Below are positions 21,450 to 35,011 of a DNA stretch of 41,659 nucleotides, piece after piece. The notes below the pieces were generated by a model, which was given only the letters and a program-made list of their open reading frames with translations, did no database searches and had not been told where the DNA came from. Source of the DNA: Rhodobiaceae bacterium. GTDB lineage: Bacteria > Pseudomonadota > Alphaproteobacteria > Rhizobiales > Tepidamorphaceae. A program made the position numbers and the translations under genes. Position 1 is the first letter of the stretch. Each line of letters begins with the position of its first letter. The stretch is taken from the NCBI GenBank assembly GCA_020441995.1, contig JAGRLC010000050.1, forward strand, positions 1-41,659, written 5' to 3'.

Positions 21450-23840
21450 CTACCTGAATGCCTCGTCCGGATTGAGGAGCGCGGCCGGGTCGCCGTCTTT
21501 CCAGCCGCGGCGCTCGTAGAGTTCGCCTGCGATATCTAGGCGGATACCACCATCGGAAAGCCCTTCGAGATAGGCTGCCGAAAGGCGGCTTTCGAGGCGG
21601 GGATGGGGAATGCGGAACGGACGGCTCAGCGGTGCGTCGAGGTTCACATCATGGATCACGACATCCGCGCCATAGCCGAGCGCCAGAAGGCCCGCGCCGG
21701 CATCCTGTGCGATCCACAGGTCGCGCGGCTCGCCGTTCGCGGCTGTGGTCAGCGGCGGCGGCGTCAGCGGCGTGAAGCTGTAGCCGCGATCCGCATTGCC
21801 GATGCGAAGCCCGTCCTCGCCCAGCAGGATAAGCTGATCGCCGGGTCCCCAGGCGATTGCGGAAGCCAGTCCGGGCCGCCGCATCTGGTTTTCGATGACG
21901 CCGTCTGCGCCGAAGACCGTCAGCGCGCCGGTGGTCAGCGCGGCAAGACGTCCGTCCGGTGAATAGGCGGCGGACAGAACGTCGCCGTCGAGGCCGCCAT
22001 AGGGCTCGTGCTCGCCGCTTGCTTTCAGAACCCAAATGTTCGCCCGCGAACTGTCATTGACCAATTCGCGGCCATAAACCGCCAACCGCGTACCATCGGC
22101 GGACAACGCGCCGGTGAGGCCGCCGCCACTGGTCCAGAAGCTCTTGCAGTTTACCGGGCTGTCGGAGGCCGCACGCAGGCAGGCCACGAAGGTCTCGCCG
22201 CCTGTGCCGCCGTAAACGCTGATCATGATGAAGGCGACGGCGTTGCCACGGCTCATGTCGTCGACATACAGGAAACCGCCCTGCGAGGTGCCTTCCGCCA
22301 CCTGCGATTCCAGCCGTGCGATGGGGCCACCGCTCAGGCCGCGCTGCGTCATGCGTTCAAGCTGCCGTCTCAGGATCGCGGCTCCGTCGCGCTCGCCGTT
22401 CCAAAGACCGTCTTCCTTCGCGGCGCCGGGAAAGCGCACGATCTCGAAGGGGCGAAGCGGTTCGAGTTCGTTGTGAAGCTGCGTTGCCGTGCGGAAAAAC
22501 GGGGTGCCGTCGCTTGGGCCACAGGCTTCGGTCAGCTTCAGGGCATCCGGTGTAAACGGGCCGTCTTCGCCCACAAGCTCCAGATTGACCCGGGCGCAGG
22601 GCTCGGGGCTGGAGGTCCGGAAGTCTCCGCGTTCGTAGGGCGCATAGACAAGTTCAAGCCCGAGGGAGCATGCGCTGTAGCCCCGTATGTAATGGTTGAT
22701 GACCGTGATCCCCTGCGTGCCGCGATGGATGGCGCAGGGAGTCGCCTTGTTCAGTGCAGGGCCTTCCGTGACGGTTTTTCCCTCGCGGTTGACGCGGCGG
22801 GTGCGCGCGGCATCCGTGATCATCAGGACGTCGTCGCCGATATTGGTCCAGCCGGTTGCGGGAAACAGCGAGCCGGACTTGATCGGCGGCCCATCGGCCT
22901 GGCTGAAATAGAGCTGGCCGTTGAGGATGAACGGCGTGCCGGCATTGTCGCGATAGGTTGCTTCGCCGGCGGTGGCGAGGCCGGCGAGGACCGTCTTCAG
23001 GGCCGTGCTGTACGGTGCGACGTTCAGGAGCGCGCTCGCTGCCGCCGCCGGATCGCCGGCGCGGAGGTTTTCGGCCGCGAGCTGGCGGGTGACTTCGGCG
23101 CGCTGCCGGTTCGCCTCGTTTCGCTGCCAGTAGGCGATGCCCGCCAGACTGACGGCGACGACCAGTGCCGCAAGCGACAGCACCACGGTCATCCGCTGGC
23201 GGCGGATCGCGGCGCGCCGGCTTTCGGCGATGAAGGCCAATTGCAGGGCTGTGATCTGCGGCGCCTCTTTCGGGCGCGCATCACGCCAGCTTTCAGCCGC
23301 CGCGATATCGCCGCCGCGCAGCAGCAGCGTTGCTGACTTGCCGGACGCGTCCCAGCGGCGCGCAAGGCCTGCAAGCCGCGTGTGCTCTCTGATCCAGTCG
23401 ATGTCGGTATTAAGCGCCGACACCATTGTGTCGACGGCGTCCTCGAATGGGTCACGGTCGGTGCAGAAGATGAAATTAAGCCTGGCCAGCAGCGGCGGGA
23501 TATCGCTGCCCTCGACGTCATCGATGACGATGGGCGCGATGCGCTTTTCCAGCTCGTAGGCCAGTTCGACTTCCCAGGCGCAGACCTCCGACTTGGCCGA
23601 ATGCGGGCTGAGCAGGAAGACGATGGTGTCGGCTTCGCGGATCAGTTCCTCGAGCCGGTCGCGCCATTCCTCGGTTGGCAGGATGTCGTCGGTGTCGCGG
23701 AAGACGCCGAAGTTGCGCTCGCTCAGGACCTGCGAGAATCGCTGGGCCTTCTCGCGGTCCTTGCGCGAATAGGAGATGAAGACTTTGGGCTGGTCGGACG
23801 GTTCGCCGTCTTCCTCACGCGTTACATCAGATGCCGTCAA
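21450..23840 (-). CDS. TIR-domain, transmembrane, beta-propeller-like protein
   Basis: This 796-residue protein has a TIR domain at about 19-140: KVFISYSRKDREKAQRF opens it, FRDTDDILPTEEWRDRLEEL is the BB-loop region, and IVFLLSPHSAKSEVCAWEVE holds the probable catalytic Glu90. A linker with WRDARPKEAPQITALQLAFI follows, then one membrane helix at about 218-237, a charged helical stretch (RNEANRQRAEVTRQLAAENL), and about 500 residues of beta-rich sequence. Blades such as LSADGTRLAVYG, AAYSPDGRLAALTTG and GEDGLRIGNAD look like a WD40/PD40 propeller. TIR domains in bacteria often cleave NAD. The start is TTG at 23840, after GGGAG; no ATG or GTG start is in frame before the TIR domain. It is 63 bases downstream of the tautomerase gene. 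Confidence 0.85.
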   Translation of the reverse strand: MTASDVTREEDGEPSDQPKVFISYSRKDREKAQRFSQVLSERNFGVFRDTDDILPTEEWRDRLEELIREADTIVFLLSPHSAKSEVCAWEVELAYELEKRIAPIVIDDVEGSDIPPLLARLNFIFCTDRDPFEDAVDTMVSALNTDIDWIREHTRLAGLARRWDASGKSATLLLRGGDIAAAESWRDARPKEAPQITALQLAFIAESRRAAIRRQRMTVVLSLAALVVAVSLAGIAYWQRNEANRQRAEVTRQLAAENLRAGDPAAAASALLNVAPYSTALKTVLAGLATAGEATYRDNAGTPFILNGQLYFSQADGPPIKSGSLFPATGWTNIGDDVLMITDAARTRRVNREGKTVTEGPALNKATPCAIHRGTQGITVINHYIRGYSACSLGLELVYAPYERGDFRTSSPEPCARVNLELVGEDGPFTPDALKLTEACGPSDGTPFFRTATQLHNELEPLRPFEIVRFPGAAKEDGLWNGERDGAAILRRQLERMTQRGLSGGPIARLESQVAEGTSQGGFLYVDDMSRGNAVAFIMISVYGGTGGETFVACLRAASDSPVNCKSFWTSGGGLTGALSADGTRLAVYGRELVNDSSRANIWVLKASGEHEPYGGLDGDVLSAAYSPDGRLAALTTGALTVFGADGVIENQMRRPGLASAIAWGPGDQLILLGEDGLRIGNADRGYSFTPLTPPPLTTAANGEPRDLWIAQDAGAGLLALGYGADVVIHDVNLDAPLSRPFRIPHPRLESRLSAAYLEGLSDGGIRLDIAGELYERRGWKDGDPAALLNPDEAFR

Positions 23841-23903: not shown

Positions 23904-24284
23904 TCAAGCATATTGCGCGATGCCGTTGCCCAGTGACCAGTTTTCCTTGGCGACCTCGAAGAGACCGATGAAAACGTCTTCGCGGCGCAGGCCGGGGTTC
24001 TCGCCGAGCAATTCGGCGATCCGCCGGTAGAGCGCCTTCTTTTGATCGTTCGTGCGGGTGTTGTTCGCGGAAATCTGGATGAAGACCAGGTCGTCGGTGC
24101 GGGAAATGCCGAGATAGAGCGGGCTGTAGCGGAAGTTCGATGCCTCATGTTCGCTGATCGTCACGAAATCATTGTCGGCAGGCACGTTGAAGGTTTCGTG
24201 CAAAGCCTGGTGGACGCCGTCGCAGATCGCCTGGCGGTAGCTTTCAGATTTTCCGGCACGCATCGAGATGTGAATGAGCGGCAT
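23904..24284 (-). CDS. Tautomerase-family protein
   Basis: A 126-residue member of the 4-oxalocrotonate tautomerase / MIF superfamily. Met is followed by Pro2, which becomes the catalytic N-terminal proline after processing, in MPLIHISMRAGKSESYRQA. The later part has RTNDQKKALYRRIAELLG and EDVFIGLFEVAKENWSLGNG, which fits the longer, two-module members of the family. It may act on an enol or keto acid. AGGAAAGGAAC precedes the ATG. It is divergent from a LysR regulator around a T-N11-A motif, so it is probably regulated by it. Confidence 0.87.
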   Translation of the reverse strand: MPLIHISMRAGKSESYRQAICDGVHQALHETFNVPADNDFVTISEHEASNFRYSPLYLGISRTDDLVFIQISANNTRTNDQKKALYRRIAELLGENPGLRREDVFIGLFEVAKENWSLGNGIAQYA

Positions 24285-24351
24285 GTTCGGTTCCTTTCCT
24301 GCTCGTATTCTTCCGTGTGGCTAGGAACCTAAGAGTAGTCGTGTTATTTGT

Positions 24352-24372
24352 TTATCCCATGGTTGGAGATAA
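24352..24372. promoter_or_regulatory. LysR-type T-N11-A box
   Basis: TTATC (24352-24356) and GATAA (24368-24372) are separated by exactly 11 bases, a perfect dyad of LysR type. A second GATAAC follows at 24378. It lies between the divergent tautomerase and LysR genes and is 18 bases from the LysR start, so autoregulation is likely. Confidence 0.7.
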
Positions 24373-24390
24373 CAAAGATAACAACTTGAA

Positions 24391-25248
24391 ATGATGGAAC
24401 GTGCGCTCGATCTCGATGCTGTTCGTGCTTTCGTGCATATCGCGGAGCTTGGAAGCTTCACGCGCGCCGCCGAAGCGACGCGCACGACGCAGTCGGCGGT
24501 CAGCCTGAAACTGAAGCGGCTGGAAGACAGGCTGGGGGTGCGGCTTGTCGAGCGCACGCCGCGCTATGTGAAGCTGTCTTCGCGCGGGGCTGCGTTTCTG
24601 GAACATGCCCGCGAATTGCTGGAAGCCCATGATCGTGCCTGCTCCGCATTGAGCGAGGCCCGCCAGCGGCTGACTATCGGCATCAGCGACCATGTCGCGG
24701 GGCCGGAGCTGCCCTCGCTGATCGCACGCATGAACGCGCAGGATCCGCAGCTCGTCATCGAGATCCGTATCGGCTCGTCGGGCGACCTGTTGCAGAGCTT
24801 CGACCGGCGCGAGTTCGATACGGTCATTGTCCGCCAGCATGTAGGACGCGACGATGGCGTGGTGCTGGCGAAAGAGAAATTCGGCTGGTTCGCCGCGCCG
24901 GGTTGGCAGCATCGCGCCAGCGAGCCGCTGCCGGTTGCGACGATGCCCGAACCTTGCGGTATCCGCATTATGGCGGGGCAGATGCTCGATGAGGCGGGCA
25001 TCCCGTGGACGGAGATTTTTGTCGGTGGCGGCGTCACGGCGGTCTCGGCCGCTGTCATGGCCGGCATGGGAGTTGCGGCGCTTGCCCGGCGCATGTTGCC
25101 GCTCGGCGCAGTCGATGTCGGCCCGAAGCTCGGGTTGCCTGATTTGCCGCGCTTGCCGGTGATGCTGCATACGCGGGAGAAGGACAGTCCGCAGCGCGAT
25201 GCGCTGGCAGCCCTTTCGGCGGCGTTCAAGAGTGCCGTGCGGGATTAG
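24391..25248 (+). CDS. LysR-family transcriptional regulator
   Basis: The 285-residue protein has an N-terminal winged helix-turn-helix (about 5-65): LDAVRAFVHIAELGSFTRAA, then TQSAVSLKLKRLEDRLGVRL and TPRYVKLSSRGAAFLEHARE. The effector domain (90-280) has the usual two-lobed pattern. The start is the first of two adjacent ATG codons (24391, 24394); neither has a good ribosome binding site, so expression may be low or leaderless. It is divergent from the tautomerase gene. Its last four bases overlap the end of the convergent cyclodeaminase gene. Confidence 0.9.
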   Translation: MMERALDLDAVRAFVHIAELGSFTRAAEATRTTQSAVSLKLKRLEDRLGVRLVERTPRYVKLSSRGAAFLEHARELLEAHDRACSALSEARQRLTIGISDHVAGPELPSLIARMNAQDPQLVIEIRIGSSGDLLQSFDRREFDTVIVRQHVGRDDGVVLAKEKFGWFAAPGWQHRASEPLPVATMPEPCGIRIMAGQMLDEAGIPWTEIFVGGGVTAVSAAVMAGMGVAALARRMLPLGAVDVGPKLGLPDLPRLPVMLHTREKDSPQRDALAALSAAFKSAVRD

Positions 25249-32662: not shown

Positions 32663-32938
32663 CTCAAATCTCCCTTCTTTCGGCAAGCGTCCGAAAACGC
32701 TTCCGGCCAAGGCTCGGGGAGAGAGTGAAAATTCTACACCCGATTTTACCTGCTGAACAGCATATTGCGCGATGTCAAACCCGCCTCTTGCCAAGTGGTG
32801 AAATGCTTGGGACCATATTCGTCACATAACGCTCGCGCTTGAAGGCGGGACCGCACCCACTAAACCTGAGCGCGCGTGACAAGAAGGGACAAGCCGGTTC
32901 CGTCGAGGGTCCAAGGACCCCAAGGGGAGGAACTCGGC

Positions 32939-35011
32939 ATGGGATCAGCAAACACCGGCGCTCAAAGCAATGGCGCTCAAGCGGGCCCGCTCGGCGGGCG
33001 GGCCATTGCGATTGTCGGGCCGTATCTCAGCGGCAAGACCACACTTCTTGAAGCGCTTCTGGCGCGCAACGGAACGATTCCGCGCCAAGGCAAGATCAGC
33101 GACAAGAACACCATTGGCGATGCGTCCCCGCAGGCGCGGGCGCATGGCATGAGTGTCGAGGTCAATATCGCCTCAAGCGAGTTTCTTGGCGACACATATA
33201 CATTTTTCGATTGTCCGGGTTCGGTGGAGTACCTGCAGGAAATGCGCGGTGTGCTGCCGGGCGTCGATGCGGCGATTGTCGTTTGCGAACCCGACGAGAA
33301 GAAAATTCCGGCGCTGCAGGCGATCCTCAAGGAGGTTGAGGATGCCGGCGTGCCGCACATGCTTTTCGTGAACAAGATCGACAAGTCGGAAGGCACGCTG
33401 CAGGGCACGCTGGAGCTTATCCAGACGGCCAGCGGCCGGCCGGTCGTCATGCGGCAATTGCCGATCTATGAGAACGATGTTGCGACAGGTTTCATCGACC
33501 TGGCGCTGGAGCGCGCTTTCGTTTACCGCGAGCACGCGCCCAGCGAAGTGGTCAAAATGGGCAAGGACCAGCAGGAGGAGGAGAGCGAGGCGCGCTTTTC
33601 CATGCTGGAGAAGCTCGCCGATTATGACGACAAGCTGATGGAGCAGCTTCTCGAGGACATCGAGCCGCCGCGCGATCTTGTTTTCGACGATCTCGCGCGG
33701 GAACTGCGCGAAGGGCTGATCGTTCCGCTGTTCCTTGGTTCAGCGGAAAACGGCAACGGCATGCTGCGGCTGATGAAGGCGCTGCGGCATGAGGTGCCGG
33801 GCGTTACGGAAACCGCCGCGAGGCTTGGTGCCGCCGATGACGGGAGCACGCGGGCCCAGGTGATGAAGACCATCCATACAAGCCATGGCGGCAAGCTCTC
33901 CGTGGTGCGGTTGCTGTCCGGGAGTATCCATGACGGCGCGATGCTGAAGGATGCGGAGGGCAACGATATAAAGATTTCCGGCCTTCAGAGCGTCTTCGGA
34001 CAGGACACCCATCGCGCGGATGGCGCTCAGGCGGGAGACACGGTCGGGTTCGCCAAGCTCGACAGCGTGAAGACCGGCGATACGCTGAGCGCCGACAGCA
34101 GCGGCAGTCTGGCGCGTATCGAAACACCTTCGCCTGTGCTGAGCCTTTCGGTGGCGGCCAGGGAGCGCAAGGACGAGGTGAAGCTGGCCGCATCTCTCGC
34201 CAAGTTGATCGACGAGGATGCCTCGCTGTCGCTCGATCACAATCAGACCACGGGCGAGATGGTGCTGAGCGGGCAGGGCGACATGCACCTGCGCGTGGCT
34301 CTGGAAAAGCTGATGACCAAATACGGGGTCTCGGCTGACGCGAAGCGTCCGCGTGTCGGTTACTGCGAGACCATCCGCAAGGGAACGACCGTGCGCGGGC
34401 GGCACAAGAAGCAATCCGGCGGACACGGCCAGTTCGGCGATGTGGTGCTCGATATCAAGGCGCTGCCGCGCGGCACGGGCTTTGTGTTCGACAGCACGAT
34501 TACCGGCGGTGTTGTGCCCAAGCAGTACATTCCGTCCGTGGAAGCCGGTATCCGCGAATACCTGAACAAGGGGCCGCTCGGCTTTCCGGTGATCGATGTC
34601 GGCGTGACGCTGACGGATGGCTCGTACCACAGCGTCGATTCCTCCGACATGGCGTTCCGTACAGCCGCCCAGATCGGCATGCGCGAGGGCATGCCGCAAT
34701 GTTCGCCGGTATTGCTGGAACCGATCATGGCGGTGGAGATCCATGTGCCGAGCGAGGCGACGGCGCGTTTGAACCAGATCGTCTCGCAAAGGCGTGGACA
34801 GATCCTCGGCTTCGATGCGCGCCCCGGTTGGGATGGCTGGGACACGGTGAACGTGCATCTGCCGGAAGCCGAGATCGGCGATCTGATTGTCGAATTGCGT
34901 TCGGCCACATCCGGCGTTGGCGGATTCTCGACCCGGTTCGATCACTGGCAGGAACTGACCGGAAAACTGGCGGAGCAAGTGGTCGAGCAGCACGCCGCGG
35001 AAGCTGCCTGA
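32939..35011 (+). CDS. EF-G-like translational GTPase, divergent paralogue
   Basis: The 690-residue protein has the whole EF-G layout: G domain (about 20-280), domain II (SGSIHDGAMLKDAEGN), domains III-V with KQSGGHGQFGDVVLDI and YHSVDSSDMAFRTAAQ. The G1 loop is GPYLSGKT (27-34) instead of the canonical AHIDAGKT, the switch I GIT stretch is replaced by HGMSVEVNIASSEF, and G3 is DCPGSVEY rather than DTPGHVDF. NKID (145-148) is intact. This is a known EF-G-like subfamily in alphaproteobacteria rather than the main FusA. GGGGAGGA precedes the ATG at 32939. Its role may be in ribosome rescue or stress. Confidence 0.88.
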   Translation: MGSANTGAQSNGAQAGPLGGRAIAIVGPYLSGKTTLLEALLARNGTIPRQGKISDKNTIGDASPQARAHGMSVEVNIASSEFLGDTYTFFDCPGSVEYLQEMRGVLPGVDAAIVVCEPDEKKIPALQAILKEVEDAGVPHMLFVNKIDKSEGTLQGTLELIQTASGRPVVMRQLPIYENDVATGFIDLALERAFVYREHAPSEVVKMGKDQQEEESEARFSMLEKLADYDDKLMEQLLEDIEPPRDLVFDDLARELREGLIVPLFLGSAENGNGMLRLMKALRHEVPGVTETAARLGAADDGSTRAQVMKTIHTSHGGKLSVVRLLSGSIHDGAMLKDAEGNDIKISGLQSVFGQDTHRADGAQAGDTVGFAKLDSVKTGDTLSADSSGSLARIETPSPVLSLSVAARERKDEVKLAASLAKLIDEDASLSLDHNQTTGEMVLSGQGDMHLRVALEKLMTKYGVSADAKRPRVGYCETIRKGTTVRGRHKKQSGGHGQFGDVVLDIKALPRGTGFVFDSTITGGVVPKQYIPSVEAGIREYLNKGPLGFPVIDVGVTLTDGSYHSVDSSDMAFRTAAQIGMREGMPQCSPVLLEPIMAVEIHVPSEATARLNQIVSQRRGQILGFDARPGWDGWDTVNVHLPEAEIGDLIVELRSATSGVGGFSTRFDHWQELTGKLAEQVVEQHAAEAA

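Follow-up and report, generated by a model that had tools for sequence, protein, structure and literature searches.

A single gene in the window, by which we mean the whole 41,659-nucleotide stretch analysed here (contig JAGRLC010000050.1 of a Rhodobiaceae bacterium), encodes a 796-residue protein in which an N-terminal TIR domain is followed by a conserved linker, one transmembrane (TM) helix and a C-terminal half of predicted propeller-type fold. On balance, this protein is probably a self-contained, single-pass outside-in receptor in which the sensor would bring about clustering of TIR domains and cleavage of NAD+, likely in defence. In the proposed mechanism, the TIR domain would reside in the cytosol, the helix would cross the inner membrane once, and a disulfide-bonded propeller would occupy the periplasm. 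The propeller, or proteins held by it, would bind a periplasmic or envelope signal, which would pass along a continuous linker–TM–stalk helix and bring TIR domains together. The assembled TIRs would then cleave NAD+ through Glu90, resulting in NAD+ depletion or the production of a signal molecule. Characterised bacterial TIRs mostly act in defence, and we therefore regard defence against phage or other envelope attack as the likeliest purpose, a role that by analogy is plausible but unproven.

The gene occupies positions 21450..23840 on the minus strand. It starts with TTG, as the sequence-only reading had proposed, and runs through all 796 codons without internal stops; a GGGAG motif lies upstream, 12 bases from the start. 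Its GC3 of 0.79 and its codon-position GC resemble those of the neighbouring genes, indicating that the open reading frame is a real resident gene of the source genome, a draft that is 75% complete. A search for a sigma-70-like promoter found none, a result that is uninformative.

The TIR domain (residues 20–139; 23424..23783, minus strand) matched Pfam TIR_2 (PF13676) with an E-value of 7.6e-24, scoring 85 bits against a gathering cut-off of 28. The putative catalytic residue, Glu90 (codon 23571..23573, minus strand), is glutamate in 24 of 24 aligned sequences, a set that includes the window protein itself, and is retained in all relatives, down to 35% identity. S23, Y24, D28, W59, D71, S78, S84, K99 and P103 are likewise invariant. 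Glutamate at the catalytic position, which had been noticed from the sequence, is thus a conserved feature, kept in every homologue aligned. Structural comparison of the model TIR using VIA identified the SPARTA TIR (8i87; Z 19.8, rmsd 1.7 over 128 residues) and the SARM1 TIR (9mw2; Z 17.9), both of which are NADases. The best solved-structure matches of the TIR profile were the TIRs of Toll-like receptors (TLR15/2, TLR6 and TLR2; E 5e-12 to 4e-9), and a phmmer search of the PDB with the single protein sequence returned no match at E 0.01. Glu90 shares an alignment column with the glutamate of the TLR2 'WCKYE' motif, and we know of no NADase activity in Toll-like receptor TIRs. Because these receptors keep the same residue, its presence is no proof of enzyme activity. 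The 'intact active site' of the earlier reading is necessary but insufficient for NADase function, and the glutamate, taken alone, is a weak criterion.

Between the TIR domain and the membrane lies a linker (residues 146–214; 23199..23405, minus strand; WIREHTRL..LLRG..AE.W..) that is common to relatives with differing C-termini. The TM helix (residues 215–239; 23124..23198, minus strand) is immediately preceded by RRAAIRRQR. Hydropathy analysis revealed one segment above the usual threshold, with a peak at residues 217–235 and a Kyte–Doolittle (KD) mean of 2.48, and the rest of the protein never exceeds 1.6. AlphaFold2, whose pLDDT is mostly 84–97 over the TIR, linker and TM helix, predicted one long helix at residues 198–260 that includes the TM segment, with further helices at 264–274 and 279–287. 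The stalk (residues 240–287; 22980..23123, minus strand) is accordingly modelled as a continuation of the TM helix followed by short helices. Hydropathy and the model thus agree on exactly one TM helix between the effector and sensor parts, as originally suggested, rather than several.

The C-terminal half is predicted to form a beta-propeller with an insertion (residues 303–777; 21510..22934, minus strand). Beta strands were modelled at residues 303–381 and 536–777, separated by a partly helical, low-confidence segment (residues 383–535; 22236..22694, minus strand) with pLDDT mostly below 50. The full-length model, built from 26 sequences, has a mean pLDDT of 69 and medium confidence in its C-terminal part; the C-terminus folded alone gave a worse result (pLDDT 50), and C-terminal conclusions were drawn from the full-length model. 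The top Foldseek matches were WD40 and NHL propellers, led by WDR12 (E 5e-8). TIRs and propellers occupied the VIA list for the full model, the Brat NHL propeller aligning with Z 15.6 and an rmsd of 3.7 over 207 residues. Pfam contained no accepted family C-terminal to TIR_2 and no WD40 or NHL match in the C-terminal half, WD40 being absent even at E-values up to 1. The propeller-like C-terminus proposed earlier is hence borne out by structure prediction and structure comparison, and the assignment is a prediction of fold with no sequence-family match behind it. This half also carries six cysteines (369, 391, 415, 440, 554 and 565; 22146..22736, minus strand), three of which (391, 415 and 440) fall within the insertion.

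The C-terminus very probably lies outside the inner membrane, since three indirect lines, namely charge asymmetry, conserved paired cysteines and a natural fusion to a Peptidase_M23 domain, agree; the same evidence supports the receptor-like, outside-in layout of the sequence-only reading. Across 27 family proteins, the 18 residues before the TM helix carry a mean net charge of +4.0 and those after it −0.2, with the charge before the helix equal to or greater than that after it in 27 of 27 (Wilcoxon p 8e-6), although these proteins are related rather than independent, which inflates both this statistic and the cysteine-parity count given below. In the window protein itself the flanks are +4 on the N-terminal side versus +2 on the C-terminal side, a weak bias when considered alone. 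All six post-TM cysteines are matched in one homologue (L035) and in another of only 28% identity (L049), in which the counterpart of C440 lies a few residues away; a third (L034), whose sequence ends after C369, retains that cysteine. Among propeller-type proteins having any C-terminal cysteines, 17 of 19 have an even number, a parity inflated by their relatedness. A further TIR-TM-propeller protein (L107, 1406-4330) contains 18 post-TM cysteines, mostly in close pairs (321/329, 494/503, 548/556, 706/716, 760/768 and 812/825). An RCL-(about 16)-PP.WC tail is conserved in L021, L022, L023, L026, L037 and L089; it often holds the sole two C-terminal cysteines of WD40 relatives, and from its sequence it looks like a conserved disulfide. 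The C-termini of the TPR and caspase versions, domains that are usually cytosolic, are cysteine-poor and offer no help for topology, which may differ within the family.

The fusion occurs in WP_174012738.1 of Agrobacterium tumefaciens CG920, which has the architecture TIR-linker-TM-WD40-Peptidase_M23 (M23 E 4.5e-21) and is 34% identical to the window protein over the TIR and linker. Its gene (L113:3959-6892; NZ_CP116698.1) resides on the conjugative plasmid pAtCG920, with an IS701 transposase on one side and an ATP-binding protein on the other. Peptidase_M23 is a domain of the peptidoglycan-hydrolase type that belongs outside the cytosol, and the protein is in effect a naturally occurring reporter of the family's topology. 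By eye, its metal-binding histidines look degenerate, and the domain is probably a binder rather than an enzyme. A more distant TIR match on Kovacikia minuta plasmid pB (L115:2793-5942) combines three TIRs with the extracytoplasmic sensor CHASE2 and is possibly another type of TIR receptor.

The TIR, linker and helix (residues 14–255) form a shared module onto which varying C-termini are placed. At E 1e-20 the module was found in 17 of 397 genomes of the order, one of which has at least six copies. WD40 propellers follow it in L021, L023-L025 and L037, TPRs in L018, L019, L028, L077, L082 and L085, and caspase-like C14 domains in L027 and L030. The last two genes (L027:4296-5996 and L030:5598-7265) place two death-type enzymes on one chain. 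One genome (G043) carries seven TIR-module genes with differing C-termini, a local expansion. The source genome contains two further module genes (C104 and C71), both continuing into TPRs, and also encodes TIR-nSTAND1-Sel1 (C124, L032:3133-6402) and TIR-nSTAND1-WD40 (C49, L033:6193-10413) proteins. Of 398 genomes searched across the phylum, 8 contained matches to a linker–TM profile. Some of the matches are nSTAND1 proteins, and nSTAND1 proteins with WD40 or TPR domains bear a related linker and hydrophobic helix. No relatives were found among viral contigs and phages. The window-type C-terminus itself was found in only four genes from three draft genomes, the others being L034/L051, L035/L050 and L049, from two other drafts. 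A C-terminal profile, whose conservation is too low for a pattern scan, recovered the window protein only among the 397 genomes of the order, with the same outcome in the class; among relatives of a Filomicrobium MAG, it recovered only the copies in that genome and a single marginal match. A constant effector module paired with a variable sensor is consistent with how receptors evolve, and this family of swappable-sensor TIR proteins is widespread and apparently unstudied. The addition of transmembrane regions to TIR proteins is noted in a review (PMC9153377), and metacaspases with TM architectures running from inside to outside are documented in a survey of caspases (PMC3501461); in the open-access literature, with subscription papers outside the scope of the search, no study of TIR-TM-propeller proteins was found.

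Metabolic genes flank the TIR gene on both sides. The tautomerase gene does lie 63 bases upstream, as the sequence-only reading observed in hinting at co-transcription; the functional link is unsupported. It forms a divergent pair with a LysR gene (window positions 23904-25248), and the two genes are adjacent in five relatives (L118, L120, L122, L123 and L125; LysR 32–81% identical), none of which has a TIR match within 1.5 kb on either side of the pair. At E 1e-15, this tautomerase is absent from the other close relatives that carry the TIR module. A tautomerase–TIR operon was consequently rejected as a functional link, and by gene order the tautomerase appears to belong with its LysR regulator. 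The search for defence genes near homologues, anticipated in that reading, likewise revealed no defence island: among 92 open reading frames flanking relatives, the families listed included no recurrent partner, no listed Pfam family occurring in more than two, and the PADLOC matches listed were single ones only. The TIR gene therefore seems to act alone, as a stand-alone unit. One of the 92 was matched by PADLOC models for phospholipase effectors, and the product of a gene adjoining a TIR-receptor homologue (L035:5352-6611) resembles by eye a phospholipase of the patatin-like type, which is also represented among CBASS effectors. Elsewhere in the window (32876-35011, plus strand), an EF-G-like protein (NF009379, 711 residues from a GTG start) may be a second, divergent EF-G.

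Three other readings were weighed against the outside-in NADase receptor. An unlikely one keeps the layout and makes the TIR a docking domain without enzymatic activity, recruiting further TIR proteins in the manner of Toll-like receptors. The Toll-like receptor matches of the TIR profile, with their shared glutamate, are in its favour, as is the presence in the source genome of further TIR proteins, including two of the TIR-nSTAND1 type; the nearest folds are nevertheless the NADase TIRs of SPARTA and SARM1, Glu90 is invariant down to 35% identity, and no recurrent partner gene is linked. Less probable still is a TIR merely anchored by a helix that does not span the membrane, with a cytosolic propeller sensing an internal signal. 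Cytosolic conflict proteins commonly end in WD40, TPR or caspase domains, the WD40 and TPR parts of STAND proteins are believed to sense internal signals, and nSTAND1 proteins share the related linker and helix. The strong hydrophobic helix, the positive-inside bias, the conserved paired cysteines and the natural M23 and CHASE2 fusions all argue against a cytosolic propeller.

It is very improbable that the protein has a regulatory or metabolic role, rather than a defensive one, tied to the tautomerase and the nearby amino-acid genes. Such a role would suit the housekeeping surroundings, possible read-through from the tautomerase gene, and a PADLOC scan of window proteins that detected no other defence genes. 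The conservation of the LysR–tautomerase pair without a TIR, the lack of the tautomerase in close TIR-module relatives and the occurrence of the module in unrelated neighbourhoods speak against it.

Extending the outside-in receptor to the family, we tentatively suggest, at slightly less than an even chance, that bacteria possess a large family of outside-in TIR receptors, in which a single cytosolic TIR-linker-TM cassette has been joined by recombination to a wide range of periplasmic sensors (propellers with disulfides, propellers tipped with M23 and perhaps also TPRs), a functional counterpart of Toll-like receptors that would read envelope attack and answer by NAD+ cleavage. To our knowledge, the characterised bacterial TIR systems (Thoeris, CBASS, SPARTA and TIR-STAND) all sense in the cytosol. 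A membrane-wired TIR, if real, would let the cell respond at adsorption or envelope damage, and bacteria would have a Toll-like-receptor-like layout. TM-bearing TIR proteins are already known and the window protein's own C-terminus is rare; the interchangeable sensors, the M23-tipped plasmid version and the single-gene format make the idea directly testable.

Among known systems, the TIR resembles Thoeris ThsB and type III ThcB4, through weak matches to NF058526 (E 6e-11; 41.8 bits against a cut-off of 220) and PADLOC ThsB1/ThsB (E 1.5e-9). The window protein differs from these in its TM helix and propeller, and no ThsA/ThcA-type partner was detected among the window proteins scanned. Bacterial TIR-STAND proteins (Avs-like, TIR-nSTAND1-WD40/Sel1) share the N-terminal TIR and C-terminal repeats as a sensor and employ an NTPase switch, whereas the window protein would couple directly through the membrane: Pfam identified no STAND NTPase between its TIR and C-terminus, which are joined by a linker of about 70 residues. 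Toll-like receptors likewise combine a cytosolic TIR, one TM helix and a repeat-built ectodomain. Their order of LRR ectodomain, TM and then TIR is not that of the window protein, whose TIR is N-terminal, whose C-terminus is propeller-like and which lacks a signal peptide; we do not claim a common origin of the whole architecture. The closest parallel in working plan is PknD, a receptor Ser/Thr kinase of Mycobacterium tuberculosis with a cytosolic kinase, a single TM helix and an extracellular beta-propeller, activated by dimerisation (PMC3601408). PknD has a kinase in place of the TIR and a six-bladed, symmetric propeller, and no sequence relation is claimed; what the two would share is a cytosolic enzyme joined by a single TM helix to an outer beta-propeller sensor. 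In the alphaproteobacterial TIR-TM-WD40 proteins (for example L037 of Roseibium aggregatum and WP_174012738.1 of A. tumefaciens), the WD40 is matched by sequence, whereas the window propeller has no such match and a 150-residue insertion; they have the same TIR-linker-TM module, at 34–65% identity, and a propeller C-terminus.
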